Of a stretch of 33,298 nucleotides of DNA, positions 1 to 23,051 are shown piece by piece. Below the pieces are notes generated by a model. That model was not told where the DNA came from and made no database searches. It saw nothing but the letters and a program-made list of their open reading frames with translations. How positions within the stretch are numbered: position 1 is the first letter of the stretch; the number at the start of each line of letters is the position of its first letter. Source of the stretch: a virus; the IMG/VR virus record IMGVR_UViG_3300046751_000059, positions 1 through 33,298 of that record; one strand, 5' to 3'. The translations under genes and the position numbers were made by a program.

Positions 1-127
1 TTACATCGGTGATGCTAAACTCACCAGCATCTACTTTCAGCCTGTAGTCAACTTGAGTGCCGCCAGCAGTGTCATTGAAATCAATCTGTGGAGCATCTTT
101 TGCAAGTTCAATGTTTCCAGAGGTGGT
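1..127. repeat. 127-bp exact direct repeat, copy 1
   Basis: Identical base for base to 32712-32838, diverging at base 128 (t here, a at 32839). It lies in the tail fibre frame and encodes the segment beginning SGNIELAKDAPQIDFND. It starts exactly at the first base of the window, so it is probably an assembly-graph overlap and not only a gene duplication. Confidence 0.97.
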
Positions 128-2008
128 TGCACCATCCATAGTGACTGTGCCAGTGACATCAATGCCGCCAGAGGTGGTTTCAAATTTAACATCCCCATCG
201 TATCGTAATTCAGCACCAGCGTCTTCTTTGAACAAAGCAATAGTTGAGCCATCGTCATCTTCAATACGAACTTGACTGCCCCTAATTCTTAAGTCGCCAG
301 TGCCTTGCTCATAAATATAACTTGTTGTGCCTGTGTGGTAAATCTGAAGGTCATTGCCAGCACCGAAGATGGCCTTGTCGTTGTCGCCGAAGGTGATGTC
401 GCCAGACATAGTGCCGCCAGTTAAGGCAAGAAAGCCTGTTCCTGATACGTATGCCGCTACCCAAGCAGAACCTGTATAGACATACATAGCCCCTGCCACG
501 CTATCAAAATACAAAGCACCAGCTACTAAAGCATCACCGTCATTATCTACAGTAGGTGCGCTAGACTTTGTGCCAAGATACCTATCATCAAAGTTATCGT
601 AAGCCGCTAGTGTTGCATCTCTTGCACTCTCAGCCGCACTCTGTGCAGATGATGCAGATGATGCTGATGATGCCGCGTTAGTCTCAGATGTTGACGCATT
701 AGTTGCGCTAGTTGAAGCAGACGATGCACTAGAGGCCGCGTTAGTCTCACTAGTAGACGCATTAGATTCGCTTGTACTAGCATTGCTTGCTGATGTAGAC
801 GCATTAGATGCTGATGTAGCGGCATTTGTTTCACTAGTAGAAGCGTTGCTTGCTGATGTAGCGGCTTCTGACGCCTTTGTTGTGGCAGTAGATGCACTAG
901 TTGATGCAGACGACTCGGATGTAGCGGAGTTGCTTTCGCTGGTTGCCGCATTAGCCGCAGATGAAGATGCTTCTGATGCTTTTGTTGTAGCTGTAGAAGC
1001 ACTGGTAGATGCGTTTGTAGCACTTGTAGCCGCCTCACTAGCCTTGGTTGTAGCAGTTGTAGCATGACCTGATGCTGTAGTAGCTGAACTTGCCGCCGCA
1101 GTTGCGCTTGAAGCCGCATTTGTCTCGGCAGTCTCAGCGTTAGTCTCAGCAGTTTCAGCATTTGTTTCAGCAGTTTCAGCCGCAGTTTGTGCTGTCTGTG
1201 CCGCAGTTGCGCTAGAAGATGCGCTACTTGCACTAGAAGCCGCCGCAGTAGCAGAAGATGCCGCTTCACCAGCTTTTGTAGTAGCGGTGGTAGCATTTGT
1301 TGCGGCGTTTTGGACATCTGACAAATTGTCTACAATACTTTGCATATTGGATGTTACACCAGCAACAGTGGTTACATTAGCTGATACCCCAGCTACTGTT
1401 GTTACGTTAGATGATATTCCAGCTACAGTTTGAATAGCATCAGTCGCGTCTGTGCCATCCTCGATGTCGGCTAGTGTGGCTATGTCAGCAGTTACAGCAG
1501 AAAGAGTTGACACGTCTGCAATCTTTGGTCCTGCTTCTGGCACACCAGTTGTTGCATTAAACCCTAGAACAGTACCCGCTCTAGTCGCTTTAAGCGGAAG
1601 CTCCATTGAGCCAGCCGCATCACTGTCTTGTAGGCGTAGTGAGCGATCTACAGCGTCTTTACGGTCTGCAAACTGTGCAGTAATCTTATCTAATTCTGTG
1701 TTGAGAGAACCGATTTGAAACGCACCAGAGGCAGGAAAGTCAGTAGTACGCTCAAGAGCAATGTCTCTAGTTATAACTACTGTGCTACCGCCTGTTGCGC
1801 CTGTAACACTTATGGTTACAGTACCAGTAGAGCCACTACCACCAGATACAGTGTAGTCTGTAGTTAAAGTTTTAAGTACGTTATCTACATATACGTTAAG
1901 ATCGGCATCAGCAAAAAACTCAAACGAAACCGTAAAGGAAGTTTGTGTAACGCCCTGTGCTACAGCATATGATACGCGTGGCGTATTGTCTGATAAGTTA
2001 ATAGTCAT
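1..2008 (-). CDS. Tail fibre protein, T7-type N-terminus (cut by window edge)
   Basis: Forms the host-binding fibre attached to the tail. The ATG at 2006-2008 opens a frame that stays open to base 1, 669 codons, with no stop. Residues 1 to about 130 resemble the T7 tail fibre N-terminal domain that docks on the tail tube (starts MTINLSDNTPRVSYAVAQGV). Residues about 230-466 are almost pure Ala/Ser/Thr/Asn/Glu in heptads such as ASTSETN, probably a thin trimeric shaft. After this come beta-rich fibre repeats. The last 127 bases before the edge are identical to part of the fibre gene at 31969-33168, and joining the two there gives one in-frame protein of about 916 aa. It follows the 1358-aa ejection protein after 42 bases, the usual T7 order. 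Confidence 0.85.
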   Translation of the reverse strand, partial: MTINLSDNTPRVSYAVAQGVTQTSFTVSFEFFADADLNVYVDNVLKTLTTDYTVSGGSGSTGTVTISVTGATGGSTVVITRDIALERTTDFPASGAFQIGSLNTELDKITAQFADRKDAVDRSLRLQDSDAAGSMELPLKATRAGTVLGFNATTGVPEAGPKIADVSTLSAVTADIATLADIEDGTDATDAIQTVAGISSNVTTVAGVSANVTTVAGVTSNMQSIVDNLSDVQNAATNATTATTKAGEAASSATAAASSASSASSSATAAQTAQTAAETAETNAETAETNAETAETNAASSATAAASSATTASGHATTATTKASEAATSATNASTSASTATTKASEASSSAANAATSESNSATSESSASTSASTATTKASEAATSASNASTSETNAATSASNASTSASNASTSESNASTSETNAASSASSASTSATNASTSETNAASSASSASSAQSAAESARDATLAAYDNFDDRYLGTKSSAPTVDNDGDALVAGALYFDSVAGAMYVYTGSAWVAAYVSGTGFLALTGGTMSGDITFGDNDKAIFGAGNDLQIYHTGTTSYIYEQGTGDLRIRGSQVRIEDDDGSTIALFKEDAGAELRYDGDVKFETTSGGIDVTGTVTMDGATTSGNIELAKDAPQIDFNDTAGGTQVDYRLKVDAGEFSITDV
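607..1317 (-). repeat. Degenerate 21-bp (heptad) repeats in the fibre shaft
   Basis: The fibre gene has a 7-codon period here: ASTSETN, AATSASN, ASTSASN, ASTSESN and AASSASS recur, with TTKASEA insertions about every 8-10 heptads. Only a few codons are used. Misleading open frames appear on both strands because the repeats lack stops. Such a tract can change length by recombination, which would alter fibre length. Confidence 0.8.
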
Positions 2009-2050
2009 GGCTAGATCCTACCTTTCATGTGGATATGGCTCAACTCACAA

Positions 2051-5000
2051 TTAGAAGCGTCTTATTGTGTAATCCTCTTGCTCTTGGTTTGGCAATGTAC
2101 CAGCCAAAACATTAGAAAACTCGTTTACATAATCATTCCATAGCCACAGTCTAGCTGTAGGTAAAGCTCTGATTATATCTTTAGACCCCTCACCAAAATC
2201 ACCAGTTGTAAACTTATACAAACCTGTTAGAACATCTTGCCCATAGCTAGGACCAGCACCTAATAGGTTCACAGTTCCATCCAAGAAGCTTTCTTCTTGT
2301 GGGAATCTATCGTTAATAAATCCACCGCCAAGATCAGGACCACCAAATGCGGCAGAAGTTGACATAGCTGTATAGAAACTATCTGACCATAAAGCCGCTA
2401 GACCAGACATATCAAACGATCTAGCTATCTTGTCCTGTATAGACATATTGTCCATGACAAATGGGCGATTACGATTCTTTAACTCAAGACCAAGATAACC
2501 TAGCCCCATAGCCGCAACAGCCGCTACTGCTCTGTTTCTAGCCTGACCAGTGGCATATGCCGCAGTTATCTTATTTGCCGCCGCAAACGAATATGAATAG
2601 AACTGAAACGGCAATCCAAGCAATCCATTTTCTATACGAGAATATCCACGCACACGCGGATCTTGTTCATACCCAAACTTCCTAGCAATGTGAAACGGAA
2701 CATACGCAACACCATCAACAATGATTGGCTTGTCAGCAGGAGTACCCATAAGAATGGTGTTCATGATTCCGCTATTCATTGAAGATCTAAATTCCATCTG
2801 CAAATCTTTAGCTTCTGTAGGCCACTTGTCGCTGTTAGGTAGCCATAAACCAGAACCATTTTCTTTGGTATTTTCAATAATACCATCATCAACCAGCTTC
2901 TTAAACTCACGCGCCTTGCCAGCATCAATGCCATACCTAGCCAGATATTTAATTTCAAATGGCTTTGCATTGCCATCAGCCAGACGAATAGACATCTGTA
3001 TTATAGAATGACCTCTAACTACAGCATCCAGCTTCTTCATTATGTTTGTAAGCGGCCCAAGTCCATTTAGATAAAAGAAACCGCTTTTAAGTTTGCCAAC
3101 ACCTTTGTCGTAAATACGATCAATACGATTACCTTCGCCAAAAGGATTGTTAGATATTTCATCAACATGGCGCATATGCGATGAGCCTTGAATAACTTCC
3201 CTAGCCTCACCTGCGTGGTGCGCTTCGGTCATTGTCATGCGTAGTCTGTTATCACTTATCAAGCCAAACAAACCACGGAAAATATCTTTTAGCTCATGCT
3301 CCATTATAATCTTGGCAAAGTCAGTCATACTGGCAAAACCAGCAGAGCCTAGATAATTAAGCTGTGCGCCATCACGCAATACTTTAGCCGCTCTCATATC
3401 GAATGATGTTGGATCACGCCTCTGTACAGAGCCAACAACACGATCATACATATGCGTAAAGTCGCGCCTAACTCGATTCATTTCTTTCATAGACTTGCCA
3501 GCCGCAAACATATCGTCATCAATATCTTCAAGCAGATCATCAAGACTTTTGCCATCGAACAGCTTAGCAAACTGATACAATGGTGCAGTACGCATAGTAT
3601 AAGCTCTCATTACAGCAAGAGGATCTTGCTCTATAAAGTCAAACACTAGCGCATTAGGTATATCTAACTTGCGATGCTTAAAATGCTTAGACTTGCCTTG
3701 CCCATAAAACGCATTAGCATCATCAGCTACATCAGTTAAACCCAGTATTTCATCAATGGTTTCATCAACTCTTTTCATTACAGACGCATCATCTGTAGCT
3801 AGAGTTTTCTTTAGAAACAATGGCACTCTGTTTCTAATGTCGGCATGTATTTCGCCCATGTATTTGATTGCAGAATCATTAACACGCATTTCTAAAGATA
3901 TAAGATCTTCCTTATATTCTTGGCGGCGAATATTGTGGCTTAACTCATGCAACAAAACAAAGTCTTGAAAGTCATTAAAGTTCTTAAACTTACCAAAGTT
4001 ATCTAGCATATACTTGCGCTGATGATACTGAATCTTTGCAGGGTCTAGCTTTGCTAAGTTAGCATAAGCTTGCTCTGGATTAGACATAGCTTCTTGCAAC
4101 TCTTTGTACCGCTTGTAAGCACGAGTGCGATTTATATAAGCTATGCCTGTTGATTCATCTAAGTAAACAAATGTGCCTAAAATCTTTTTGTCACCGATTG
4201 CAGGAATAGATTCTTTAGCATCTGTAACAATCTTTTTAACACCAAACTTTTCACCAAAGCGTAGCTGTATTTCACCATCAGATAGTTGCGATATGTTTCT
4301 AACAAAGTTGCCGCCCTGTGCATCAGGATTAGGCACATATATCTCTGGGTTTTCCTTGTACCAATCAAACAATACTTGAGCAAACTCTTGCCGCCGTCTG
4401 CTAATTTGATCCCTGTCCCAATATCTAGGAAACATAACTTCTTCCATAGCTGGCACAGATGACTCATCACCAGCCGCCGCAATCTGCACCTCAAGATCAA
4501 TAAGTTCTGATTCTAATCTAGCCTGTTTTGTTCTAAGTATTTCTAAATAGCTAGTTTGATTTAATGAAAGGCCAGCTTTTTCTGCGTCAGCCCTTCCTTC
4601 AAGTTCAGATATTTTATCTATAGTTTTTTGCAGATTGGCTTCTTTGTTAATAATCTGTGATTGATATTTCTTTACGTTACCGATCTGTCCCGTTTCTCTA
4701 AGACGTGCTTCCCAATCTTTGTAGAAGTTAGCCATAAGTTCAATGGCTTCTTGTTCACCTTTGGTAGCACCCTTAATGCCATTTATATATTTTCTGTTTG
4801 CTTCTTTTGCAAAAACAGTAAAAGAGCCATCAATATTAGATAGGTTAAGATCTGTAAATGTGCTTACGCCTTTGCCAGAATGTTGCCCAAAACTCTGCAA
4901 CATACTTGAGTAAACCTGTAACCATTCACCATTATGCGTTTGTGCATATTGATATACTGACTTTGGGCTAGCTATTCCTAGCTGGTGCATCTTAAGCAAA

Positions 5001-6127
5001 ACGCCAGAATCACCACCTAGCTTAACCATATGCTTCTTAACGCTATCAGGTATTGCACCCTGCAATGTTCTTTTAACAGGGGATGGCACAGCTTTATACA
5101 TCCAGCTATCGGTAAACCAATTCTTAGCCATGCCGTGTGCATCTTCTGTATTAAGTTTTTGTATATCTTCTGCTCTGCGTATCTGTTGCTCTACGCGTAT
5201 GTTATTCAAATCTTTTTTGTTGTTATCTAAGGCAGTCATCTTTGCCTTTTTTTCATCACGCAAAGCTTTAAGTTCTAATTCATCAGTTGCTGATGCGGCT
5301 TTTTCTGCTGAATTTTTATGTGCTTCAATACGAACCTCTAGGTCATTAACGCTTTCTTCTAGTGCGTCTATACTCTTTGGAAGGCTCTCTCTGCGTGTTG
5401 ACAACACTTCATCTGCTTCATTGCCAAGTATTCTGGCTTCTCTGTTACCTACAGTTTCAGCGTCTGCTCGTGACAAATTACCAGTAACTTCAAGAAACTC
5501 ATCTAACTCATCATTAGTTTTGCGTATAGCTGACGCTCTCCTGCTAGCAGGAACAGATACAGCACCACCTATAAGGCCACCAACAACAAAAGCCGAACCA
5601 ATGTTCATAGCTACTTCTTCTGGTGTGGCTAACGGATCGAATGGTGCGCGACCAGCCTCAAGGCCAGCTTGTAATGTACCAACAGATGCGCCTGATCTAA
5701 GGAACTGACGCCCTAAACTTGCCGCCGCACCACCAAAGGGTAATGCTACAAGGTTAATTGGATCTATAATGCCAGCACCAAGATTATAAACAAATGGCGA
5801 CTCAGCCATAATCCTGCGGCGTTCTTGATTAAGATCAAGGCTGGTTTTCATTTCAGCCATATGTTTAGGATTACGCGCATTTATTAAATGCGATTCAAAC
5901 TCCTCATAACCTTCCATATCAGTTAAAGGATTGTAGCCAACTTCATACTCGTCACGATGCTTAAACTGGTCGCGTATAGCTTCTGCTATCGGTATATATT
6001 GATAACCAAGATTTGCTGGCAATGTGTCAGACCAAAACTTTGGCGACTCATCTTTGCCAACACCTTCCGAATACTGTACGCCAGTAATGGATTGTTTTGG
6101 TGTGCTTGCATATACGTTTGTTGACAT
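2051..6127 (-). CDS. Large internal virion (ejection) protein with zincin-like HELSH motif
   Basis: 1358 aa, in the place of T7 gp16: after the other two ejection proteins and before the fibre. Proteins of this type leave the capsid with the DNA and build a channel across the cell envelope. Residues about 235-330 and 465-560 are charged and look like coiled coils. Residues 727-731 read HELSH (context FVLLHELSHNIRR), the HExxH pattern of zinc metallopeptidases. The T7 protein instead has a lytic transglycosylase domain, which I cannot recognise here. The C-terminal 250 residues are rich in Ala, Gly and aromatics and may touch the membrane. The ATG at 6127 lies 19 bases after the preceding gene's stop. 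The virion role is fairly sure; protease activity is inferred from the motif only. Confidence 0.85.
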   Translation of the reverse strand: MSTNVYASTPKQSITGVQYSEGVGKDESPKFWSDTLPANLGYQYIPIAEAIRDQFKHRDEYEVGYNPLTDMEGYEEFESHLINARNPKHMAEMKTSLDLNQERRRIMAESPFVYNLGAGIIDPINLVALPFGGAAASLGRQFLRSGASVGTLQAGLEAGRAPFDPLATPEEVAMNIGSAFVVGGLIGGAVSVPASRRASAIRKTNDELDEFLEVTGNLSRADAETVGNREARILGNEADEVLSTRRESLPKSIDALEESVNDLEVRIEAHKNSAEKAASATDELELKALRDEKKAKMTALDNNKKDLNNIRVEQQIRRAEDIQKLNTEDAHGMAKNWFTDSWMYKAVPSPVKRTLQGAIPDSVKKHMVKLGGDSGVLLKMHQLGIASPKSVYQYAQTHNGEWLQVYSSMLQSFGQHSGKGVSTFTDLNLSNIDGSFTVFAKEANRKYINGIKGATKGEQEAIELMANFYKDWEARLRETGQIGNVKKYQSQIINKEANLQKTIDKISELEGRADAEKAGLSLNQTSYLEILRTKQARLESELIDLEVQIAAAGDESSVPAMEEVMFPRYWDRDQISRRRQEFAQVLFDWYKENPEIYVPNPDAQGGNFVRNISQLSDGEIQLRFGEKFGVKKIVTDAKESIPAIGDKKILGTFVYLDESTGIAYINRTRAYKRYKELQEAMSNPEQAYANLAKLDPAKIQYHQRKYMLDNFGKFKNFNDFQDFVLLHELSHNIRRQEYKEDLISLEMRVNDSAIKYMGEIHADIRNRVPLFLKKTLATDDASVMKRVDETIDEILGLTDVADDANAFYGQGKSKHFKHRKLDIPNALVFDFIEQDPLAVMRAYTMRTAPLYQFAKLFDGKSLDDLLEDIDDDMFAAGKSMKEMNRVRRDFTHMYDRVVGSVQRRDPTSFDMRAAKVLRDGAQLNYLGSAGFASMTDFAKIIMEHELKDIFRGLFGLISDNRLRMTMTEAHHAGEAREVIQGSSHMRHVDEISNNPFGEGNRIDRIYDKGVGKLKSGFFYLNGLGPLTNIMKKLDAVVRGHSIIQMSIRLADGNAKPFEIKYLARYGIDAGKAREFKKLVDDGIIENTKENGSGLWLPNSDKWPTEAKDLQMEFRSSMNSGIMNTILMGTPADKPIIVDGVAYVPFHIARKFGYEQDPRVRGYSRIENGLLGLPFQFYSYSFAAANKITAAYATGQARNRAVAAVAAMGLGYLGLELKNRNRPFVMDNMSIQDKIARSFDMSGLAALWSDSFYTAMSTSAAFGGPDLGGGFINDRFPQEESFLDGTVNLLGAGPSYGQDVLTGLYKFTTGDFGEGSKDIIRALPTARLWLWNDYVNEFSNVLAGTLPNQEQEDYTIRRF

Positions 6128-6146
6128 TTATTCACTTTCGCCAGCG

Positions 6147-8813
6147 TTATGGGGCATCTATATCCATAGAAAGTTGTGGGCTTCTACCAGTTACAGAAGC
6201 TTTTGCTCTTTCTCTAATTTGTTTGTCGGTAGCTCTACCAGCATCCAACCTAGCTTGTTCACGTTCTGCTTCAATATTTTTAATTCTATCGTTAGCTATA
6301 TCGCTTGCAATAACCACAGGGCCATTATCACCAACCAAGGCAGTAAGTTCACCATCTTTTACATGGTGAGCAATATATCTAACAGTGCCACCCACTAGAG
6401 ACTGATCTGGAAACGGAACCAAAACAACTTTATCTATTGGATTGCCCATAAAATGTTCAGATATTCTAAAATTTCCATCCATTTCTTCTGATATTTTTTC
6501 TTGCGCCTCAACAATAAAAGCAGTTTTGTAATCGCTATCAGGAAAGACTCTATCAAGAGCAAAGGCAGATCTATTAGATGTTCCAGAATTTGGGTCTACT
6601 ACTATACCGCCAGTTTCAGGAAAGTGACTTTCATACACTTCTGTAATCCTAGCTTCAATTTGGCTCATGCTTTGACCATTTGCCGCCATCGTTTCTATCA
6701 TTGGCGAAAACATTTGTTGCGCTGTAAAGTTGCTACCAAATTTTGAGTTTAGATATTTGGTGTGCTTGTTTCTTGGATCTTTAACTTCTGTAAATTTGTT
6801 TTGATATATTCTTGATAATCCATTTGTAATTTTTACAGGATCATTTGAGTTTGCAACTACCTTATCAAAGACATTAGAAATATCTTCTACACCTTCAACA
6901 TTTGTTATTTGCAAAACGGTTTCTAAAACACTTTGAGTATTTTCATCTACACCCTTGCCTTGTGCTGGGCGAAGCTTATTTACAAATGTGCCTTTAGGGC
7001 CTTTGAAGTTTGAGTATCTTTTATATAAATTTAGTCCTTTTATTAAAACTGTTTCATCCACAACAGATCCAGAAGCAACTGTATCAAGGACAGTTTGAAC
7101 AGATTTCGGAACAATATTTCTCATTAACATATCATCTAATTTATTAATAAATGGTTCCGTTTGTGCTGTTGGGTTAGAAAAATCTACAGCTAACATAGCG
7201 TTTTCTAATGGAACACCTTTCAAACCAGAAGGTAATGTTTTAGATAAAATGCTATCAGAAGCTTTTTGTTCTGTTGAAGTGTTGTTTGTCATTAATCCAG
7301 CATCAATACTTACCTCTGCAAGTTGTTCAGCAGTAACTGTTGCTGGCTTAACACTACTAAGAAGGGTACTCATTTCACGGCGAATAAATGTCCTATCTTC
7401 GCCTGTATGTAGATCAATGATTTTGTCTGCAATAACTTTTTGTTTGTCGTTAAGTTCGCCTCTTTGACCATTGCTTTCAAGGTACTCACCTAAAGCTACA
7501 CCTTCTGTATATTCATTATCAGATCCAGAATTAACAGCATAACTCATCATTCCGTACAGCAAACCTTGACGCACTTCTGATCTTGATTTTTGCAGGAAAA
7601 GAGAGCTTCTACCAGCTTTGGTAGCAATATCAATTTTATTGTCTATTTCTTTTGAATATCTTGTAAACTCAGCAAATGCGTCTGAAAAATTTCCTGTGCT
7701 AGAGCTATTGCGAATTTTGCTAGATGCAACTTCCTGATCGTCCTCAATATCATTAACAACATTTAAGAAATCTTTTACTGCTAGTTCGTCATCTATTTTT
7801 TCTTGTCTTGTTTTATTAGCTTGTTGTGTTGTTTCATCATCAGAAAGCTGTTGTGTAAATCCAGTTAGATCACGAAGTAATCCATCTTGAAAATCAGGAA
7901 AGTCATCATTTGATAAAAAGCTATTAACAAGAGGCTGTAATTTTGTAGGCAACTTGTCTAAACCAACACCGCGAGAACGTATAACTTTATTAACTTGAAC
8001 TACATCATTAGATTTTAACAATGGGTCACTAGCTATAGTCGAAATGATACGCTGTGCTAGTCCAGTATATTGTGCGCTTTTAAGATCTTTGATATAAACA
8101 TTGCCAGCTTTTTCACTATATAAACCTGACTTAACACCGTTTTGTATGCTTTGTGATTGAGCTTTAATTAATTCATTAATATCTGCTTGTGTTACATCAT
8201 TAAAGTTAAGTGACGATGCGATTGCCGCAATGTCTTTAACAGCTTCGTCCACGCCTAGTTTAATATCTTTAGCTTGCTGATCTCTATCTCTGATAATTTT
8301 ATCCTGCATCAAAGACATTTTGTTCGATGCAAGTAAGCTATTGCCTAGATTTTCTATAGCTTGTGCAAATCTTGGTGATGTGTTCTTTGCAGATTCATCA
8401 ATGTATTTGCCAAATTCTGTTGAAAACATACCAACAGGATCTGAGTCAAACTGAAACTTTATAGCTATTTCAGAAGCTTTATTCTTAAATTCTGTTTCTG
8501 TTTGCTTTAGATACCTAGCTTCGACTATTTCCTTGTAGGCTTCTTGTGCAACGGTTCCAAAGCCATCAGGAATAGTAAATGCTTTTATGTCGCCAGTAAC
8601 AGGATCAATAACTCGTAGATCTGCGGCAGACGCGGCCTGTGCAGTTTCAATACCCTTTTCTTTAGCAATGCGCTTTAGGTCGTTAAAAGAGTTTTCAATA
8701 AATGTATCAGCTAGTTCGCCAACTTTTGCCCAAGACTGCGTTGCACCAGTGTCAGCACGAATAACTCCGATGTTGCTTGCAATGTTTTGTCTGCGTTGTC
8801 TAATAACTGCCAT
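6147..8813 (-). CDS. Internal virion protein, T7 gp15-like position
   Basis: 888 aa, mostly charged and helical, rich in Lys, Asp, Gln and Asn, with no signal peptide and no evident membrane helix. Its place between the 150-aa and 1358-aa virion proteins and its size match the T7 gp15 class, which forms part of the periplasmic ejection tunnel. It starts MAVIRQRRQN, 8 bases after the stop of the upstream gene. I see no catalytic motif. The call rests mainly on gene order and length. Confidence 0.75.
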   Translation of the reverse strand: MAVIRQRRQNIASNIGVIRADTGATQSWAKVGELADTFIENSFNDLKRIAKEKGIETAQAASAADLRVIDPVTGDIKAFTIPDGFGTVAQEAYKEIVEARYLKQTETEFKNKASEIAIKFQFDSDPVGMFSTEFGKYIDESAKNTSPRFAQAIENLGNSLLASNKMSLMQDKIIRDRDQQAKDIKLGVDEAVKDIAAIASSLNFNDVTQADINELIKAQSQSIQNGVKSGLYSEKAGNVYIKDLKSAQYTGLAQRIISTIASDPLLKSNDVVQVNKVIRSRGVGLDKLPTKLQPLVNSFLSNDDFPDFQDGLLRDLTGFTQQLSDDETTQQANKTRQEKIDDELAVKDFLNVVNDIEDDQEVASSKIRNSSSTGNFSDAFAEFTRYSKEIDNKIDIATKAGRSSLFLQKSRSEVRQGLLYGMMSYAVNSGSDNEYTEGVALGEYLESNGQRGELNDKQKVIADKIIDLHTGEDRTFIRREMSTLLSSVKPATVTAEQLAEVSIDAGLMTNNTSTEQKASDSILSKTLPSGLKGVPLENAMLAVDFSNPTAQTEPFINKLDDMLMRNIVPKSVQTVLDTVASGSVVDETVLIKGLNLYKRYSNFKGPKGTFVNKLRPAQGKGVDENTQSVLETVLQITNVEGVEDISNVFDKVVANSNDPVKITNGLSRIYQNKFTEVKDPRNKHTKYLNSKFGSNFTAQQMFSPMIETMAANGQSMSQIEARITEVYESHFPETGGIVVDPNSGTSNRSAFALDRVFPDSDYKTAFIVEAQEKISEEMDGNFRISEHFMGNPIDKVVLVPFPDQSLVGGTVRYIAHHVKDGELTALVGDNGPVVIASDIANDRIKNIEAEREQARLDAGRATDKQIRERAKASVTGRSPQLSMDIDAP

Positions 8814-8821
8814 GTTTATCT

Positions 8822-9274
8822 CTAATCAGTTTTGTATTGATGGTAACGATACATTCCAGTAACTATCGATGTTGTTGCACCAAGCAATGCTTCTCTGCCA
8901 GCATACCTACCTTTAGTCGCTTCCATACCAGCCATTGCTCTTTGCTGTGATACAGTCATCATGCCAGTTGACTCTATTGACTCTACATCAGACAAGGCAA
9001 TTTCTTTTTGCCGATCCATAAAAGCTTTCATAGATCTGTCAGATGTGTCTCTGTTCATAAAAGAAAAGAACGCCATGTTAGCAGACTGTGCAGATTCAAA
9101 GTCACGCATACGAATGTTTGCTTTTTGCAAAGCTTCTATTTCAGACTGCCTTGCTGATTGCTCATATTGCTGTCTGTTAAATGCGGCTTGACTCTTTGCC
9201 GCCTTGCCTTGCTGTATCTGTGAATACATTGAAAGGCCAGTAGCGGCTATCTGAATACCTAGTGGAATAGCCAT
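8822..9274 (-). CDS. Small internal virion protein, T7 gp14-like
   Basis: 150 aa. It begins with a hydrophobic, glycine-containing stretch (IPLGIQIAATGLSMYSQIQQ) followed by a long Gln/Ala/Lys helix. This is the typical build of the smallest podovirus ejection protein, which inserts in the outer membrane in T7. Its ATG overlaps the stop of the tail tubular protein B gene by one base (TAATG arrangement at 9274), so the two are translationally coupled. Assigned by position and composition. Confidence 0.7.
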   Translation of the reverse strand: MAIPLGIQIAATGLSMYSQIQQGKAAKSQAAFNRQQYEQSARQSEIEALQKANIRMRDFESAQSANMAFFSFMNRDTSDRSMKAFMDRQKEIALSDVESIESTGMMTVSQQRAMAGMEATKGRYAGREALLGATTSIVTGMYRYHQYKTD

Positions 9275-11541
9275 TAGAACGATACCTCTGCTATAATGCC
9301 ATTAACTTGCAATGATAATGGTGCTGTTTGTGTAATACTAACTGTTGGATCTTTACTATACCCCAACAATCTAAATTCTTCTTTGCCAGTGACAGGCGTT
9401 CTGGCAATACTAAAGTCATCTGTAACCTGACGAATAACCAGCCTCTTGTCATTAATCGAAACAGATAAGGTATCTAATAGATCCACGACTACCCTATTAA
9501 CGGCGCGAGGTTCGCCTGTGAGTGGCCCTCCCGCTATCTGAGCATCAATCGGTAGTGTTTCTGCTCTTACATCAAATGCAAAGCCAATCTCGGCTGATGT
9601 TATTTCCTGCACAGCAGACACATCCACGTTGCCACTAGCTACAGTAAACTCACCTAGATAGTCAGTGCCGCTCACAACTTTTACTTTTGCGCCATTGGCA
9701 AAGTGACTAGACACATCGAACACACCAGCAGAACCACTAAAGGTATCCGCAAAATCCATGTTAAATGACGAGTTAAACTCCATCAAAACAAACTTCTCAG
9801 TGCCAGCACCCAAGTCATATTTAGCTACACAAAACACACGATCATCTACTACACACACAGAATGAAACTTGCCTGATGTAGTCCACTCAGACCAACCAGC
9901 TCTTTGCTCTGCTCTGTTAGATGTAAACACAGCAATCTTACCAGTATCATTAAGGACAAAGGCATATGACTCAGGACGATTGATTGCACCGCGCAAGATA
10001 CACATCTGAACAGGATTACTTATCAAGTGTGGCGATAGTGTGGATATGCCAGTAGCTACATAGGCCGCTTCTGAATCTGAATAGATATACTCGCGCACCA
10101 CAGAGCCAGTTTTTTGCACATAGATTGTTGCACCATCAAATGATTCTGGGCGAACAAAGTTACTGCCATACGGAGTTTGTCTGCGTATCTGTGCATTAGT
10201 AGGCGTAATAGCTTTCTCAGTAAATGAAGGTATGTACATTTCTGATGTGCTAGTAAAGATCTGTAGATCGCGGTTAGACATTAGATGACGTATAGTATTA
10301 ATCTCACCAATAGCCGCAGTGAGGTCAATAGCATCACCATCTTCACCATCACCTACATCAAAGTCAAAGTATGATGCTGGCTTACTAGCCCATATACCGT
10401 CAGGCTGTGCAACAGTGCCAGCTAACCACAATCTGTTTTCATGCAGAGTAACAGCCGCAGGGAATCCTCGTAATGTGCTGTATGACTGCTCACTCCATTC
10501 TGTAGTAGCGGCATGTGTTACAATCTTAGGTGAACCACCACCAACAGCAGAAGCATTAGCCGTAGCTCCAGAAGTAACAACAATTACATTTTCATCAATA
10601 ACTTCTTGAACAGTTTCAGTGCCATTTATTTGATTGGCATTAATACCGCCAACAGCACCAGCATCACTTATAACAATAGTATCTCCTGTGCTTAGACCAT
10701 GCAGAGGAAATGTAATAAGTATATCAGCACTGCCATCAATAGTTTCGATTGCATCAGTATCCAGCCTTACAATCAAATTATCATGTATTATATTCCCTGT
10801 AGCCTGTGTTGCAGACTGCACAGAAGTTAATATGATTTCATTGTTATGATAGCGCAGTGTAACGCCAACATGCTTTGAATCTGGATAGTTGCCACCTGAT
10901 TGACTGCCAGTAGTATCAAAGTAACTTGCGCTTGTAGTTACTGTAATCCCTGTGCCAGTAGAAGCAGAAGGATCTAGTGTCATGCCTACAGGCTGAAACG
11001 AATAGAATGGCTCATTAGTGCGGAATCCATCTGCGCTTTCATCAAAGGTTAGCGTTTCAACTTGGAATGTTGTAAGCCCTGTGCGTACAAGTTTTCTAGT
11101 CATAAAGGTTTGATGCGCTATAAACATAACATCGCCAGCTTGTGCGTATGTAAGTTCTGGCAGTATAGCGTGACCAAATGGCAAAGCGGCTGAATCAGTG
11201 TCAGCAGTAATTGTTTGGATTAAAGATATTGCACCAGTGCTAGGATCAATCTGAAAGACTCTGATCTTTAGATTCTCTAGGCTTACAATATAACGCTCGT
11301 CATCAGAAAAGATAAACGGTACAATACGAACTTGCTGTGTAACTGTTGCGTCAACAGTAGTATCAAATTCATACAGCTTTTCAGTGCCAAATCTTTTAAG
11401 CAAACCACCTTCATTGCGTAAAAAGAAGTTCTCTACCTTCTTTGCAGAATTGTTGTAGATAGGCGTATCCGTCCTTGAAACCAAAGACGGACTAACTTCT
11501 CCAAACTGAAAGTTGCTAATAGGTACGCGGATACGAGCCAT
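9274..11541 (-). CDS. Tail tubular protein B (T7 gp12-like nozzle)
   Basis: 755 aa, close to the usual 750-850 for this family. The N-terminus (MARIRVPISNFQFGEVSPSL, then a stretch with VENFFLRNEGGLLKRFGTE) is characteristic of podovirus tail nozzle / stabilisation proteins. The rest is beta-rich with many Asp, Thr and Gly residues. It forms the tip of the short tail and holds the fibres. It overlaps the tail tubular A gene by one base at 11541 and the next virion gene by one base at 9274, so the three are one translational unit. Confidence 0.88.
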   Translation of the reverse strand: MARIRVPISNFQFGEVSPSLVSRTDTPIYNNSAKKVENFFLRNEGGLLKRFGTEKLYEFDTTVDATVTQQVRIVPFIFSDDERYIVSLENLKIRVFQIDPSTGAISLIQTITADTDSAALPFGHAILPELTYAQAGDVMFIAHQTFMTRKLVRTGLTTFQVETLTFDESADGFRTNEPFYSFQPVGMTLDPSASTGTGITVTTSASYFDTTGSQSGGNYPDSKHVGVTLRYHNNEIILTSVQSATQATGNIIHDNLIVRLDTDAIETIDGSADILITFPLHGLSTGDTIVISDAGAVGGINANQINGTETVQEVIDENVIVVTSGATANASAVGGGSPKIVTHAATTEWSEQSYSTLRGFPAAVTLHENRLWLAGTVAQPDGIWASKPASYFDFDVGDGEDGDAIDLTAAIGEINTIRHLMSNRDLQIFTSTSEMYIPSFTEKAITPTNAQIRRQTPYGSNFVRPESFDGATIYVQKTGSVVREYIYSDSEAAYVATGISTLSPHLISNPVQMCILRGAINRPESYAFVLNDTGKIAVFTSNRAEQRAGWSEWTTSGKFHSVCVVDDRVFCVAKYDLGAGTEKFVLMEFNSSFNMDFADTFSGSAGVFDVSSHFANGAKVKVVSGTDYLGEFTVASGNVDVSAVQEITSAEIGFAFDVRAETLPIDAQIAGGPLTGEPRAVNRVVVDLLDTLSVSINDKRLVIRQVTDDFSIARTPVTGKEEFRLLGYSKDPTVSITQTAPLSLQVNGIIAEVSF

Positions 11542-12131
11542 TAACTTCGCCTTTCAGTAACAAACCTCGATGTTGGAATTCTGCGTGTAGTCTGTTGTTG
11601 TGAATCAAGGCTACGTGCCTTTGCCATAGCTTGTGTTGCAGATGCTTGCATTAGCTGTGCTAGGCTAGCGTCCCTCGCAATAGATGTGGCAAAAATGTTG
11701 GCAAGTGCATACTCTACTGCGATAACAAAGTATGAAGGCCAGTTTTCTTCTTGTGCTCTAAATGTATAGTCGACAACTAAAGTATCATTAGCAGTTGTAT
11801 CACTAAATATTTTGTTGCCGTAAATTTGATACTCAATCAGGTTATCGTTTGTTGTAACAGAATGAACCATCAAAGTATCATTAGGCAACTGATGCGCTTG
11901 ATCATAACGACCAGTAGGCTCATCTGTAAGCAAGTTCATAACTGCTTGATTGGTAGCGAAACGCCACCGTGTATTAACCAATGAAGCCCTAGCCACATCT
12001 TCATACATATTCACAGCAACAAGTGCTTCTGTACTGCCTTCGTCAAATGATGTAATCGGGTTTGCCCCAATCAAAATCAAAGCCCTAGAGCAAATATCAA
12101 TAGCTGAGTCTGCGGTTGTGCTTACTGTCAT
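11541..12131 (-). CDS. Tail tubular protein A (T7 gp11-like gatekeeper)
   Basis: 196 aa, the usual length. The N-terminus (DSAIDICSRALILIGANPI, then FDEGSTEALVAVNMYEDVAR) is the typical signature of this adaptor family: a count of the genome's 'state' helix followed by the conserved ALxxNxxYxxxR region. The ring it forms sits between portal and nozzle and gates DNA exit. It lies 34 bases after the small post-capsid gene and overlaps tail tubular B by one base. Confidence 0.88.
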   Translation of the reverse strand: MTVSTTADSAIDICSRALILIGANPITSFDEGSTEALVAVNMYEDVARASLVNTRWRFATNQAVMNLLTDEPTGRYDQAHQLPNDTLMVHSVTTNDNLIEYQIYGNKIFSDTTANDTLVVDYTFRAQEENWPSYFVIAVEYALANIFATSIARDASLAQLMQASATQAMAKARSLDSQQQTTRRIPTSRFVTERRS

Positions 12132-12165
12132 GGCAAGTGAGGGGGCTTTCGCCCCCTCCCCCTAA

Positions 12166-12429
12166 TTAGTCTGTGTCTGTCATTGTGAGGGCAGTACCGT
12201 CTGCTACGTCAACAACAGAACCAGTGTTTGACAGAACTACAGTCCATGCCATTGTTGGTGCGTCATTATCGTAAACAGCTACGAGATCGCCTACATTCAT
12301 TACAGAAGCCGCATCATTAAAGTAACCTGATGCACGTACAACAGAAAGAGCGTCAGCACTTGTATAATACCAAATGTTGTGACCGCCGCCCCCTGCCATG
12401 CGAGTTAGACCAGATGCTGAATAAGCCAT
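12166..12429 (-). CDS. Small beta-rich protein after the capsid gene, possible head decoration protein
   Basis: 87 aa, acidic, Gly/Ala/Thr/Val-rich and probably all-beta, starting MAYSASGLTRMAGGGGHNIW. It sits 13 bases after the capsid gene and has a good ribosome site (GAGGAG just upstream). Small beta-rich proteins directly behind the capsid gene are often capsid decoration or stabilising proteins. I do not recognise a named family, so the role is inferred from context. Confidence 0.65.
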   Translation of the reverse strand: MAYSASGLTRMAGGGGHNIWYYTSADALSVVRASGYFNDAASVMNVGDLVAVYDNDAPTMAWTVVLSNTGSVVDVADGTALTMTDTD

Positions 12430-12442
12430 ATTCTAATCTCCT

Positions 12443-13255
12443 CTAGTTGTTGTCCAAGACTTCATAGATACCGTTGTCATCAATAACGACAGCACCCATT
12501 GACATCATGGAAGTTGCAAGGTGTGAGACACGCTCTGGAACGTAGTTCAACTCAGTAGTAACGTCTGATCCAACACCCAGACCCACAGAAGATGTGTGGT
12601 ATGCAATGTTCTTACCAGCAGTTACGGCTGATGTTGAAAAGATCTTGAAGCCCAAGAACTCTTTCATGCTCATGCCGCCAGCGTAAGGAAGATTCTGCTC
12701 ACCAACAAAGTCGCTAGAAGCAAACTCAGTGATAGAAAACAGATCAGCATAACCTTTCGGGTGCATAGCAAGATAGCGTCCACCGTCCTCTGGAATGTCA
12801 GCAGAACCAAATGTCTCAAACAGAGACAGTAGATCAGCCTTTTCCAAAGCAGAGCTTGTGTCGTGGATCTGAGTTGAGTTTGCGCCAGCATCCATAGCTG
12901 TAAGCAAAATCTCATCAGTCTTACGACCAAGTGCGGCGGCGGCAGATTTAGCCACAGCCTGACGCTCATCAATGTTAGTCTTGAGTTCATCTAGCTTGTC
13001 GATGTACTCAGCCGCATAGAAGTCAGACATTGTAGCTTCCACATTTGTATGTGTTAGCTCCATTGGTGCTACCATGCCGTTGCGTGATTTAGTTGAAGCA
13101 GAGCCAGTGCCGATCTTTTGGAATCGAACTACTGAACCACTCACATTACTTACTGTACGCACTGTGTTCCGCAATTTAGAACCCATGCGCTGATAAGCCA
13201 TGTGAACCTCTGATTCAAACTGTTTGATAAAGGCGGTATCTATTGTATTCGCCAT
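12443..13255 (-). CDS. Major capsid protein
   Basis: 270 aa, short for a podovirus capsid protein but typical of marine phages with a compact HK97-fold subunit. It lies directly after the scaffold and GNAT-like genes. An N-terminal helix (IDTAFIKQFESEVHMAYQRM) precedes a beta-rich body with the regions ERQAVAKSAAAALGRKTDEI and MHPKGYADLF, which I recognise from capsid proteins of this type. The 87-bp gap upstream (13256-13342) may hold its promoter, and the ribosome site GAGAAGGA fits the ATG at 13255. Confidence 0.88.
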   Translation of the reverse strand: MANTIDTAFIKQFESEVHMAYQRMGSKLRNTVRTVSNVSGSVVRFQKIGTGSASTKSRNGMVAPMELTHTNVEATMSDFYAAEYIDKLDELKTNIDERQAVAKSAAAALGRKTDEILLTAMDAGANSTQIHDTSSALEKADLLSLFETFGSADIPEDGGRYLAMHPKGYADLFSITEFASSDFVGEQNLPYAGGMSMKEFLGFKIFSTSAVTAGKNIAYHTSSVGLGVGSDVTTELNYVPERVSHLATSMMSMGAVVIDDNGIYEVLDNN

Positions 13256-13342
13256 TTTACAGTCCTTCTCTTTAAGGTTGTTGAGTTACAGTTTTGCGGT
13301 TATCTGTGTGGCATCCTCAACGCGAGTATCCTTGCGGGTCGC

Positions 13343-13864
13343 TCAGTGCATTACAGGCCGTGTTAATTCAGCAATAACACCTTTATGTTTCTCTCTGCAA
13401 CGCACAAAACGCATCATAGTATGACCGCATATATCATACGTCACATCATCAAAGGTGAATCCGCACCAGCTTAACCACATGATTGTTTCATGGTGATCGG
13501 CTGGAACGTAGTTTTCTATGTATTCATAATCACTGTGAAGAAGGTCTATGGCATCAGCGCATCCTCTAAGGAATGGCCTAAAGTTATTAGTGATACCGCT
13601 AGTCCCAAGCATCCATATCCTTGCGCCAGATTGATCTAATGGAACAGAGCCGCACATAGCGATTGGAGAGTCGTCTAATTTTATGGTGTATGTTTTTGCA
13701 CCATGTATAGCCAAAGGCTCTGTAAGGGCTTCTAACGGCCTTAAACCGTATATCAAACATTCCCTAAGATCGTGCAGTCGTAAGTCATCTGCTATCGCCT
13801 CTGCGTGATGGGGTAGGCTTTTGCTTAACGAGAGCCTACCAACTCGTATTAGATCCCTAGCCAT
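13343..13864 (-). CDS. GNAT-like internal protein (T7 gp13-type / phage acetyltransferase-like)
   Basis: 173 aa. The N-terminal pattern (EAIADDLRLHDLRECLIYGL, later SPIAMCGSVPLDQSGARIWML) and C-terminal WLSWCGFTF fit the GNAT-fold proteins that podoviruses carry near the capsid gene, often named internal virion protein A. The acetyl-CoA-binding loop is not clear, so it may be structural and not an enzyme. Its start overlaps the scaffold stop by 8 bases. Its place between scaffold and capsid, not after the capsid, is slightly unusual. Confidence 0.7.
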   Translation of the reverse strand: MARDLIRVGRLSLSKSLPHHAEAIADDLRLHDLRECLIYGLRPLEALTEPLAIHGAKTYTIKLDDSPIAMCGSVPLDQSGARIWMLGTSGITNNFRPFLRGCADAIDLLHSDYEYIENYVPADHHETIMWLSWCGFTFDDVTYDICGHTMMRFVRCREKHKGVIAELTRPVMH

Positions 13865-14588
13865 AAATCTTCTTGAAACCTGATTCTATCTGGCTGACGA
13901 AGTGAGGGTCGCGCCTAGCAGGATCATGATAGCGGGGATCTAACATCATAGCTTTTAACTCAGCTTCATTTGTTTGCATAGCTGTTTCTGCATCATAAGC
14001 AGGACCAGATTGCTTTATCTGCTCCATGATATGCTCAAGAGCCATGATGCCATCGGCAGTTTCACACATACGCTCAATCGCGCCAATGTGTTCTTCTGGA
14101 AAGAACTGGTTAGCAAACAAGCTAGCGGCTTCTGTTCTTGCCGAAGCATTGTCACCTAGTCTTGCAGTCTCAGCTTCAAAGTCAGGAACATCAGCGTTCA
14201 AAGCATCCATGTACATCTGTATGCCTTCTTGGAACTCCTCTTGGCTGTATCCATTTTCATATGATTGATTAGCCCACCAGTTAAGCAACTCATTGCCTTC
14301 TGCCTGAGTTTCATCAAAGCCCTCTGGCAACTGATAGTCACCTACTTCTGCTGGACGATTAGCAAATGCTTCCTCTTGGATTTCTTTCATCCAAGCTTCT
14401 CTAGCTTCCTCGTCCTTCTGGCCTAGCTTACCTTCTAATGATGAGTATGCTGTAGCCAGATCTTCTGCTGTCTTAAACTTTTCTGGCAACCACTCAGGAC
14501 GCTCGGATTCCGTTTGCAATAACGGATCACCGCCCTCAGTAACAACATCACTTTCCTGTGGTGCTTCTACTTGTGCTTCTTCATTCAT
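13857..14588 (-). CDS. Capsid assembly scaffolding protein
   Basis: 243 aa and strongly acidic (runs of Glu/Asp/Gln), with a helix-rich centre and a small basic C-terminal end (FVSQIESGFKKIYG). This is the general build of podovirus scaffolds, whose C-terminal helix binds the coat protein. I use the ATG at 14588 (MNEEAQVEAPQ) and not the upstream one at 14693, because the longer form would overlap the previous gene by over 100 bases and adds an unlike N-terminus. From 14588 the overlap is 8 bases. Confidence 0.85.
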   Translation of the reverse strand: MNEEAQVEAPQESDVVTEGGDPLLQTESERPEWLPEKFKTAEDLATAYSSLEGKLGQKDEEAREAWMKEIQEEAFANRPAEVGDYQLPEGFDETQAEGNELLNWWANQSYENGYSQEEFQEGIQMYMDALNADVPDFEAETARLGDNASARTEAASLFANQFFPEEHIGAIERMCETADGIMALEHIMEQIKQSGPAYDAETAMQTNEAELKAMMLDPRYHDPARRDPHFVSQIESGFKKIYG

Positions 14589-14850
14589 CGTTTTTTGCCC
14601 TATGTGCGTGACGGATGCGTGACTCAATGAGGCCAACGATATATCGCTGTCCTTCCATATGGCGCAGTTCCGCATCGGAAACCCCTGCACCATGAACCTG
14701 TTCTATTGTGATTGATCTTAGATAGCGTAATACTTCTGCACCAGTATCAGTGCTGAAAAGACTAGCTAGATTTAAGCTAATCTTTACATCTTCTTCCTTC
14801 TTACGCTGATAGCCATCAAGTCCTAAGTATGCGTTATTGTTGCGGCTCAA
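14581..14850 (-). CDS. Small protein between portal and scaffold
   Basis: 89 aa, starting MSRNNNAYLGLDGYQRKKEE. It overlaps the portal gene end by 17 bases and the scaffold start by 8. The second half (SIRHAHRAK-like basic end) is charged. It is soluble and helical. I recognise no family. Position suggests a morphogenesis accessory. Confidence 0.6.
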   Translation of the reverse strand: MSRNNNAYLGLDGYQRKKEEDVKISLNLASLFSTDTGAEVLRYLRSITIEQVHGAGVSDAELRHMEGQRYIVGLIESRIRHAHRAKNDE

Positions 14851-16429
14851 TTAATTGTTCCTCTTGAGGTTGAGACATTTGTTGCTGTTGCATCGCTTGT
14901 GCCATAGCCACCATTTGTCTACGTTCCTCAAGGTCGCGGATCAGTGTATCAGGGACGCCAAACTTCTTAGCTAAGTAAGCGGCGGTATCTTCTGAATTGA
15001 TGAGTAGGTTCATTACCTCTGGACCGAAACTGCCCTGCACAAGCTCAAGCCATCTAGCAACGGAGGATATATCTTGATTAGCCTGTGCCTGTGCAAGAGG
15101 TGATACTGAACGTACCTTCACTTCACGACCATTGATTGTCGGAAGTTCAATTCGCCCCTGCTTCTTTAGAATATACACAACCCTTTGAAGAACAGGCTGA
15201 ACAAGTTCTGCTTGCAGTCTGCCAAAAGCAGAACCAATGCGGCGTGATAGATCTGACATACGCTCTGCAACCTCTGTAGCAGAAGCAGGAGTACGATCAG
15301 GATTACCTAGCATATCATTGTATAGCGCACGTTTAATATTCAAGCGCATGTCTGACAACACAAGATTAGCTACATCAAACGAACCAGCCGCACGAATAGG
15401 CTCAAGACCGCGTGATCCTGTAGCTTTTGGTATGACTGTTCCAGGGACTAGGTTGATCGTATCTGGGTTTACTACTCCGTCATCTTCCATTTGATATATG
15501 CCTGAGATAGCCATTTGCGCGTTCTCAAGTATAAGTTCAATCGTAAGATTAGTAGTTTTAATAGCACTAAGCGCATTGATGAGAGGACCCCTCCCATAGA
15601 CTTCGCCACTGCATTTCGACCAACGGAAGCAAACAAAAGGATTTGACCCAACACCTCGGTACTTCTCCTCTTTGACTATTTCTTTTGTATCACACTCAAT
15701 AGCATAGAATAGGTAGGCATCTTCATTCTTAACGCTGTAATCCTTGCAAACTATTTCAAGGATCTTCACACGCTCATCAGGATAGTTGTTGATCTTAGTT
15801 TGTAGCTTGCTACTTAGCTTTGCCTTTGGATACATAATTGCAATATCAGATGCGCGAACCTGTCTTTCTCTATAGACATGATCGATCTTATCATCAGGAC
15901 CAGAATCAAGAACAACGTGCGGCAAAGGTATGGCAGAAAAGACTACAGGATTTACAGCATCGCCCTCTGAAACGCTTAGTATGCCTGTACCAACAGCCAG
16001 ATCCATGAATGACTCATGCACTTCCTGACCAAAGTTTGAGTTTTGTATTACTTCAAACACATACTCTGTGACTTCATCTAGCTCGTTATCAACGCTTTCG
16101 CGTGAGTCAGGTGGCACTTCACTGCCAGATGTGAAGTCTGCCCAACGTGCAAAGTTAGGCACAAGACCCTGTTGCAAGCGGGATGCAAACTCTTGCACAC
16201 CAACAACAGCAGTTTCGTCAAAGATCTTATCATCCCTACGCTGACCAATCGTTTCATAGTAGAACGACTCGCGTTGTGGTAGCGCATACTCGTAACACTC
16301 CTCAAAGAGTGGCACAAAGTTTTCGCGCATAGATTTAGCTTTTTCGTATTTTTTCAAATACATAGCGGCAACTTTATCGTTGCCACCGCCAGATCCACCA
16401 AAGGATGATGTGTCTGTGTATGTTATCAT
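14834..16429 (-). CDS. Portal protein (head-tail connector, T7 gp8-like)
   Basis: 531 aa, the expected size. The N-terminal part (YLKKYEKAKSMRENFVPLFEECYEYALPQ) is the typical podovirus connector start, followed by TAVVGVQEFASRLQQGLVPN and, in the C-terminal half, NPDRTPASATEVAERMSDLS, a well-conserved portal stretch. The end is Gln-rich (QQQQMSQPQEEQ). The dodecamer forms the DNA entry channel and binds terminase. It overlaps the preceding 71-aa gene by 4 bases. Confidence 0.92.
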   Translation of the reverse strand: MITYTDTSSFGGSGGGNDKVAAMYLKKYEKAKSMRENFVPLFEECYEYALPQRESFYYETIGQRRDDKIFDETAVVGVQEFASRLQQGLVPNFARWADFTSGSEVPPDSRESVDNELDEVTEYVFEVIQNSNFGQEVHESFMDLAVGTGILSVSEGDAVNPVVFSAIPLPHVVLDSGPDDKIDHVYRERQVRASDIAIMYPKAKLSSKLQTKINNYPDERVKILEIVCKDYSVKNEDAYLFYAIECDTKEIVKEEKYRGVGSNPFVCFRWSKCSGEVYGRGPLINALSAIKTTNLTIELILENAQMAISGIYQMEDDGVVNPDTINLVPGTVIPKATGSRGLEPIRAAGSFDVANLVLSDMRLNIKRALYNDMLGNPDRTPASATEVAERMSDLSRRIGSAFGRLQAELVQPVLQRVVYILKKQGRIELPTINGREVKVRSVSPLAQAQANQDISSVARWLELVQGSFGPEVMNLLINSEDTAAYLAKKFGVPDTLIRDLEERRQMVAMAQAMQQQQMSQPQEEQLIEPQQ

Positions 16430-16641
16430 TGATTAAACCTGTTATAGAATCCAGCACCACCACCCGAACTGCGGATCAAAGATCTACGCCCTGACCCCTT
16501 ACGCATACTTTGTACGGTTTCTTCAAGACGCTCTTGCTTTGCACCCTTCTTTTCTTCAAGGGCTTTGGCTTTATCAGCTTCTTGCTGTGCCTTTATAGCA
16601 GGATCGACTTGAGGTGTTTTAGGCGCACGACCCACACACAT
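16426..16641 (-). CDS. Small MCxG-type phage protein between terminase and portal
   Basis: 71 aa, starting MCVGRAPKTPQ, with a Lys/Glu helical middle and a Gly/Arg/Ser end (GSGRRSLIRSSGGGAGFYN). Short proteins with an MC-G start and a Gly-rich basic tail are common beside the portal gene in many phages. Their function is unknown to me. The ribosome site AAGGAG lies 7 bases before the ATG at 16641. The 62-bp gap upstream holds an inverted repeat described separately. Confidence 0.7.
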   Translation of the reverse strand: MCVGRAPKTPQVDPAIKAQQEADKAKALEEKKGAKQERLEETVQSMRKGSGRRSLIRSSGGGAGFYNRFNQ

Positions 16642-16682
16642 GGCTATCTCCTTTATAACTATCTATTCCTAACCACAATTTA

Positions 16683-16695
16683 TTGCAGTCTGCAA
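16683..16695. promoter_or_regulatory. Palindrome TTGCAG-T-CTGCAA between terminase and portal blocks
   Basis: Perfect 6-bp arms around one base, in the only gap between the terminase large subunit and the portal block. On the minus strand a weak -10-like TAAATT follows directly. Two similar TTGCA/TGCAA dyads lie in promoter spacers at 22436-22450 and 27364-27377, so this may be an operator of the same kind. Confidence 0.45.
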
Positions 16696-16703
16696 CTCAC
16701 AAA

Positions 16704-18227: not shown

Positions 18228-18408
18228 CCTTGTGATCCTTACCAAACTTAATCATGCGTTCTACAATCTCAGGACCGATGGTTGCTATAACCTTGTCAGC
18301 CTCTAAGTCAGTGCAGAACTCTTTAGGATGGTATGCTAGATGTACTTTTTTAACAACACGCCTTAGAACTTCACGTTCCTCTGGCTTAATGGTGTGCATG
18401 AAACTCAT
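18214..18408 (-). CDS. Small protein before terminase large subunit
   Basis: 64 aa, MSFMHTIKPEEREVLRRVVKKVH onward, charged and helical. It overlaps the upstream basic gene by 4 bases and the terminase start by 14, so it is coupled to packaging genes. I do not recognise a family. Confidence 0.65.
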   Translation of the reverse strand: MSFMHTIKPEEREVLRRVVKKVHLAYHPKEFCTDLEADKVIATIGPEIVERMIKFGKDHKVDQL

Positions 18409-18650
18409 CTGTATCGTGCCGCCTTCTTTGCGACATCCTTTGGTTGCTTGGCGAATTGCTTACCTTTTCGTATCGCCACCCGCTTCGCTCTTGTGGTGCG
18501 TTGATACTCTGAGTCACTCATTGCTTCGATGGCTTTGCTTGGAAGGTAACGCTCACCAGTAGCCTTACTGCCTTGTGTGCTAGGCTTGCCAGACTTGGTG
18601 CGCCACTTTTGCTTAGTCCAAGCGCGTAATGATTTCTGCGGAGCTTTCAC
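18405..18650 (-). CDS. Small very basic phage protein (DUF5872-like)
   Basis: 81 aa, about a quarter Lys/Arg. The segment TKQKWRTKSGKPSTQG, followed by TGERYLPSKAI and TRAKRVAIRKGKQFAKQPK, matches a family seen in many marine phages and a few bacteria that I recall as DUF5872. The charge suggests DNA or RNA binding. It lies in a row of such proteins between the two terminase genes. Confidence 0.65.
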   Translation of the reverse strand: MKAPQKSLRAWTKQKWRTKSGKPSTQGSKATGERYLPSKAIEAMSDSEYQRTTRAKRVAIRKGKQFAKQPKDVAKKAARYR

Positions 18651-18674
18651 GATGTATATCCACCACCAGCTTTC

Positions 18675-18938
18675 TTATACAGCAGTGCTAGCCTTTGCGC
18701 TTTTCTTGCTGACCACTGACCCGCTTTTCCGCCCTTTGCCTCGCGCTTTACGCGGTTGAACAGGCTTTTCCTCAGTTTGGGCTTCGTGTAGTTCCCCGCT
18801 TCGTTGACCGCCATCTTCTTTCTCCATAGGTATTAGTCGGCGTGAGTCTGGCATATAGGTTGCGCCAGAAAGAATACGTCCATCAGGCATTTTAATAGTC
18901 GGTCCTTCATAGGGAGTGCCATCTGTAAATTGCCACAT
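18675..18938 (-). CDS. Small protein with basic C-terminal tail
   Basis: 87 aa. The N-terminal 40 residues look folded (FTDGTPYEGPTIKMPDGRIL). The rest is a disordered Lys/Arg/Ser/Gly/Ala tail reminiscent of histone tails. 24 bases separate it from the next gene. Function unknown. Confidence 0.6.
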   Translation of the reverse strand: MWQFTDGTPYEGPTIKMPDGRILSGATYMPDSRRLIPMEKEDGGQRSGELHEAQTEEKPVQPRKARGKGRKSGSVVSKKSAKASTAV

Positions 18939-18942
18939 TGTT

Positions 18943-19441: not shown

Positions 19442-19482
19442 TATGCTTTTCCTTATATTTATCTAAATCTTTAATTTTTTTG

Positions 19483-20692: not shown

Positions 20693-20693
20693 A

Positions 20694-21080: not shown

Positions 21081-21139
21081 AATGTTTGTGGTAGACCCCT
21101 TGCGAACATAACAGTCGCACTTTTGACCCCCACCCCACC

Positions 21140-21511: not shown

Positions 21512-21514
21512 CTG

Positions 21515-21535: not shown

Positions 21536-21538
21536 ACT

Positions 21539-21565: not shown

Positions 21566-21597
21566 CGCACAAAACGACAACCACGACAACAGACCTA

Positions 21598-21818: not shown

Positions 21819-21820
21819 CG

Positions 21821-23041: not shown

Positions 23042-23051
23042 GAGAACCACT

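Follow-up and report, generated by a model that had tools for sequence, protein, structure and literature searches.

The window, by which we mean the whole stretch of DNA analysed here (33,298 bp), is an IMG/VR virus record of class 'linear'. It begins within a fibre gene and repeats its first bases close to its end. Its features are listed below, where "the closed map" is the 32,711-bp map obtained when the window is joined at this repeat.

1-127, no strand: first copy of a 127-base repeat (the 127-mer), the same bases as 32712-32838 on the closed map
2-2008, minus strand: N-terminal 669 codons of a fibre gene, with a docking region (residues 1-111) and an Ala/Ser-rich shaft; the reading frame is open at the window end and has PHROG tail-protein matches
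2051-21080, minus strand: late block with internal virion proteins, tail tubes, major head protein, portal, large terminase and small genes
21657-29420, plus strand: block with RusA-like, replication initiation O-like, RecE-like exonuclease, SSB-like and unknown genes
29492-31246, minus strand: remaining minus-strand genes after the fibre, namely a 246-aa gene, a 125-aa gene and lysozyme
31358-31660, minus strand: 100-aa gene after the tip-type fibre
31660-31965, minus strand: 101-aa gene after the tip-type fibre
31969-32711, minus strand: C-terminal part of the fibre and its tip, continuous with the N-terminal part at L001:1903-4653; the joined product has 916 aa
32600-32831, minus strand: shaft module of ~232 bp, at ~90% DNA identity in otherwise different fibres of four contigs (two pairs)
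32712-32838, no strand: second copy of the 127-mer, the putative junction vertex of the assembly graph
32839-33168, minus strand: N-terminal 110 codons of another fibre (MAYLGKSPSQ...), outside the 32,711-bp map and absent from G001
33183-33298, minus strand: 3' end of a small gene with DUF7936 (PF25590) matches among its homologues

Comparison of the window with itself bears out the identity reported in an earlier note on this DNA: bases 1-127 and 32712-32838 agree at 127 of 127 positions. The note's further claim, that the match ends at exactly 127, holds on the right, where 17 of the next 60 bases agree (the chance level). On the left, the match cannot be followed past base 1, where the window starts, so that 127 is a lower bound on the sequence common to the two paths and not a measured repeat length. 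The repeat stands by itself: scans of the window at a length of at least 20 bp found no other direct repeat and no inverted repeat, and a 26-mer of the 127-mer is present at just two places in the window, against none in 100 dinucleotide shuffles. An identity that ends at 127 fits a vertex of a de Bruijn graph, and 127 bases are what such a graph with k = 127 would leave, the value of k being deduced here and not taken from the record. Terminal repeats are common in podoviruses, and the identity could accordingly reflect repeated ends on the DNA in the virion. We find this scarcely credible, given that the 127-mer lies inside a coding gene, 460 bases from one end, and that the records of the eight relatives described below are cut at different places and genes.

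The closure of the map is carried by a second contig. The closest public companion of the window, IMGVR_UViG_3300048010_000095 (16,917 bp; G001 as a genome, L001 as a locus), consists of window positions 19705-32838 joined without a gap to positions 128-3910, in reverse orientation, and matches at 16,916 of 16,917 positions. It carries a single copy of the 127-mer at the proposed closure point, and bases 32839-33298 of the window, the surplus, are absent from it. In an exact scan of viral_contigs, a 50-mer from the 127-mer was found in one stretch, which is G001. Together, the window and G001 span every step of the 32,711-bp map, and its ends are joined by another assembled sequence, as expected of a complete circular-map viral contig. 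The proposal that the record closes at the 127-mer into a 32,711-bp circle is thereby supported base for base by a contig that crosses the junction. The two records may go back to shared samples or reads and thus to a shared assembly error, and collapse of a perfect repeat could be an alternative source of the junction in G001. The sole mismatch between the two, at window position 23760 within a 308-aa gene of unknown function (22992-23918), shows that the assemblies are not copies of each other, and shows only that.

Closure also restores the cut fibre gene. As deposited, 31969-33168 on the minus strand is a separate ORF with an ATG start that encodes 399 aa. Joined at the 127-mer, the 2008 bases at the start of the window and the 743 bases of 31969-32711 give 2751 bases, or 917 codons, and the ORF at 1903-4653 of G001 indeed encodes the 916-aa fibre that the earlier note had forecast from the same arithmetic. 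The docking domain assigned to this fibre fared less uniformly: residues 1-111 match PHROG 1640 ('tail protein'), whereas a Pfam search of the fibre returned neither the T7 fibre N-terminal family that would mark a gp17-like docking domain nor any other match. A PDB search with the 916-aa fibre gave a weak match to the fibre of cyanophage P-SCSP1u (E 7e-4, residues 536-628), and the other match was one antibody chain (E 0.79).

On the closed map all minus-strand genes (late and lysis) are contiguous, as they are in phage Hodr and in eight relatives, in keeping with the prediction that the late genes form one unbroken block. The closed map gives sequence order only, and the packaged DNA is not thereby shown to be circular; such phages may package linear DNA with repeated or permuted ends. 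Fifteen records were compared by portal, and from these we took the eight that were near full length (31.2-33.7 kb, 70-86% portal identity), plus G001. All eight, which are uncultivated IMG/VR records (G009-G015 and G021), have their genes in the same cyclic order as the closed window, with 13-16 of 16 markers found in each. In four of these records the two ends overlap by 99-143 bases at 96-99% identity, and in the other four they do not; the closed lengths of the overlapping four (32,781-33,604) are in line with the window circle of 32,711 and with the 34,238 of Hodr. The shared cyclic order and the end overlaps support a closed map of ~33 kb in this group and are silent on the DNA in the particle.

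The best named-phage portal match is Pelagibacter phage EXVC031P Hodr (OQ414635), an isolate whose complete genome is circular (34,238 bp) and whose portal is 61% identical; the term EXVC031P was absent from the literature matched in a limited search. Given a portal of the PF12236 type that is more than 60% identical to that of Hodr and 70-86% identical to those of the eight relatives, and a gene order shared with 8 of 8 uncultivated relatives and, apart from one swap, with Hodr, we place the window in a Hodr-like podovirus clade (a working label, not an official taxon). Like the window, Hodr has two gene blocks on its map, and its fibre lies within the one on the minus strand (10 of 16 markers found). 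Unlike the window, it has its RecE-like and RusA-like genes in swapped order, a GC content of 32.8% (43.0% in the window), and, in place of the 916-aa fibre, a 349-aa anchor as docking fibre, with several short fibres behind it. The eight relatives are also unlike one another in that their fibre cassettes vary between records. The portal matches at G015:C1:13930-15495 and G021:C1:6900-8432 each contain one in-frame TAA, possibly just the gene's own end.

Loci were gathered in searches that kept the best 80 of 192, 561, 355, 175 and 218 relatives. The docking-region loci are the best 80 of 355, from which 16 were set aside as their ORF runs off the locus, leaving 64 complete; several of the 64 are near-copies (for example, L201/L203 and L194/L195), so that the independent cases are fewer. 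The docking region (the first ~233 residues) is conserved in the clade, and the remaining fibre and the downstream small genes vary. The complete docking ORFs encode 302-1176 aa (median 782), with 18 of 64 reaching at least 900 aa. In five of the 64 (L184, L187, L193, L201 and L203, one of which is G001 itself), the tip of the window lies in the docking ORF and the 100-aa gene comes next; in nine, a DUF7936-like gene stands behind the docking fibre instead; and in three (L240, L241 and L244), the tip is a separate ORF and the 100-aa gene is lacking.

These loci bear on the literal reading of the deposited window, in which a single genome would encode a first fibre (its C-terminus not seen), then the DUF7936 gene, then a short second fibre. 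The window as deposited does read so, and multi-fibre cassettes occur in the relatives G009, G011 and Hodr. Under such an arrangement, however, G001 and the circle would both be false repeat collapses, and G001 runs through the junction. Moreover, the order of the deposited window, that is, a docking fibre without the tip followed by a separate tip fibre and the 100-aa gene, was found in 0 of the 64 docking loci, and wherever the tip and the 100-aa gene occur together (five loci), both follow directly on a docking fibre. The three loci with a separate tip do not have the 100-aa gene. We therefore regard a single genome with both fibres as very unlikely. Instead, we conclude, with a probability of about 0.92, that the window holds the entire genome of a marine podovirus-like phage, cut open in the fibre gene, together with 460 surplus bases, and that its closed map is 32,711 bp. 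The earlier reading is thus right in substance; the arrangement stems from assembly, the phage is an ordinary mosaic one, and nothing in it is a new kind of system.

What remains is the surplus, which presumably derives from another genome or strain. Its composition is not foreign, with a GC content of 43.7% against a mean of 42.9% and a 3-mer distance at the 58th percentile. In exact scans of viral_contigs, a surplus 47-mer and a 36-mer that spans the fork at 32838/32839 were found in no stretch, giving no longer contig in which to place the surplus, and a search of the surplus DNA against named phages gave no match. For matches to the surplus, up to 45 were considered per query, and one survey of loci covered those with a match to the surplus, the small gene or the shaft module. 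The MAYLGKSPSQ fibre start has 22 protein matches at 87-94% identity (L264-L285, among the best 80 of 175 relatives), with DNA identities of up to 86% among the matches listed. Several of these relatives lie in contigs of 54.9-61.5 kb, and in L264, L271, L273 and L274 the start of this type opens a secondary fibre of a multi-fibre cassette. Two tested homologues of the surplus small gene match DUF7936 (PF25590). For the DUF7936 gene (L009:6480-6824 and homologues; window 33183-33298), a cognate role in fibre assembly is possible.

Bases on the tip side of the fork are also found in other fibres. Among alignments longer than 150 bp, the ~232-bp shaft module recurs in two pairs of contigs, L002/L003 and L008/L009, and in all four the similarity begins 7 bp inside the fork. 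At the protein level, a scan for the module gave no further full-length copies of high identity among the best 80 of 218 relatives. That this ~77-aa module (GNIELAKDAPQIDFNDTAGGTQ...) is ~90% identical in DNA between otherwise different fibres, in only three lineages among the relatives covered, suggests recent exchange. Since the fork falls at the edge of a shaft module that is open to exchange, the branch reflects real mosaicism of fibre genes and not just a limit of the assembler. The unresolved graph junction described in the earlier note fits a de Bruijn vertex.

Based on these data, we propose how the record may have arisen. A path from the fibre tip region would lead to a 127-base vertex with two exits, and there would be two exits because fibre genes share the exchangeable shaft module, whose upstream border is 7 bp from the fork. 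Through the first exit the path would continue along the phage's own fibre gene (window 128 onward) and close the 32,711-bp map; through the second it would reach the beginning of a different fibre gene (32839-33298). If the contig was begun at the vertex, the assembler, on coming round, would have taken the other exit; both k and the path choice are deduced.

Given the closed map, the evidence on the origin of the second exit is split. We favour, as somewhat probable, an unrelated phage, perhaps of ~55-60 kb and HMO-2011-like, that carries an identical shaft module, in which case the assembler walked across the module from one phage to the other. The close fibre starts in the long contigs point to this origin, as they open secondary fibres of multi-fibre cassettes that have DUF7936-like genes or other small ones close by, and the module itself occurs in two other fibre types at ~90% DNA identity. 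Against it, the small gene of those phages is only ~75% identical and differently placed, HMO-2011 itself is only 50% identical, and among the matches listed the shaft module stands behind a MAYLGKSPSQ start in none of these contigs. A serious rival, which we nevertheless think somewhat unlikely, is that the surplus belongs to a real fibre haplotype of the same population, with the DUF7936 gene and a MAYLGKSPSQ fibre before the module in place of the 916-aa fibre. Among the matches listed, the small-gene end is closest to L192, from the window's own clade (84.7% DNA identity over 118 bp), and is also matched in L185, L188, L194, L195 and L216, all with the docking region of the clade. The nine docking fibres followed by a DUF7936-like gene and the composition of the surplus are likewise consistent with a haplotype. 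However, the fibre start is closest, at 86% DNA identity among the matches listed, to secondary fibres of other phages, and no fetched contig combines a MAYLGKSPSQ start, clade genes and the shaft module. More specifically, two fibre haplotypes, one with the 916-aa docking-to-tip fibre and one with a separate start and the DUF7936 gene in front of the shared module, might coexist in one natural population through recombination at the border of that ~232-bp module. We offer this tentatively and think it unlikely; if it were true, the window would capture one moment of fibre switching in nature.

Two elements of this explanation are already in print. In Alteromonas phages A5 and V22, host-recognition parts and their cognate small genes move between unrelated phages (PMC10579305); relative to that account, the piece held in common here is the ~232-bp shaft stretch, known from sequence comparison alone. 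In viral metagenome assembly, strain variety shortens contigs, and perfect repeats are indistinguishable from circles by sequence (PMC5610896, PMC11443906); what differs from the cases described there is that a second contig crosses the break. As far as sequence settles the matter, the record contains a whole genome with a misplaced end piece and is not a fragment with two fibres; annotation should therefore show a single fibre protein of 916 aa and set positions 32839-33298 aside. The class 'linear' can thus arise merely from a fork at a shared fibre module, and it may hide other complete phage genomes.

A further fibre arrangement recurs among the loci. In L234, L207, L238, L021, L024, L030, L034, L046 and L271, the anchoring fibre ends in ...IALG. 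It is followed by a conserved protein of ~110-115 aa and then by short fibres that start with MAYIGKSP, MAYLGKSP or MSRARDFADLAG, and small chaperone-like genes sit between these short fibres. The anchor, the ~110-115-aa protein and the short fibres together look like a branched-fibre cassette with a common hub, of which Hodr carries a close variant.
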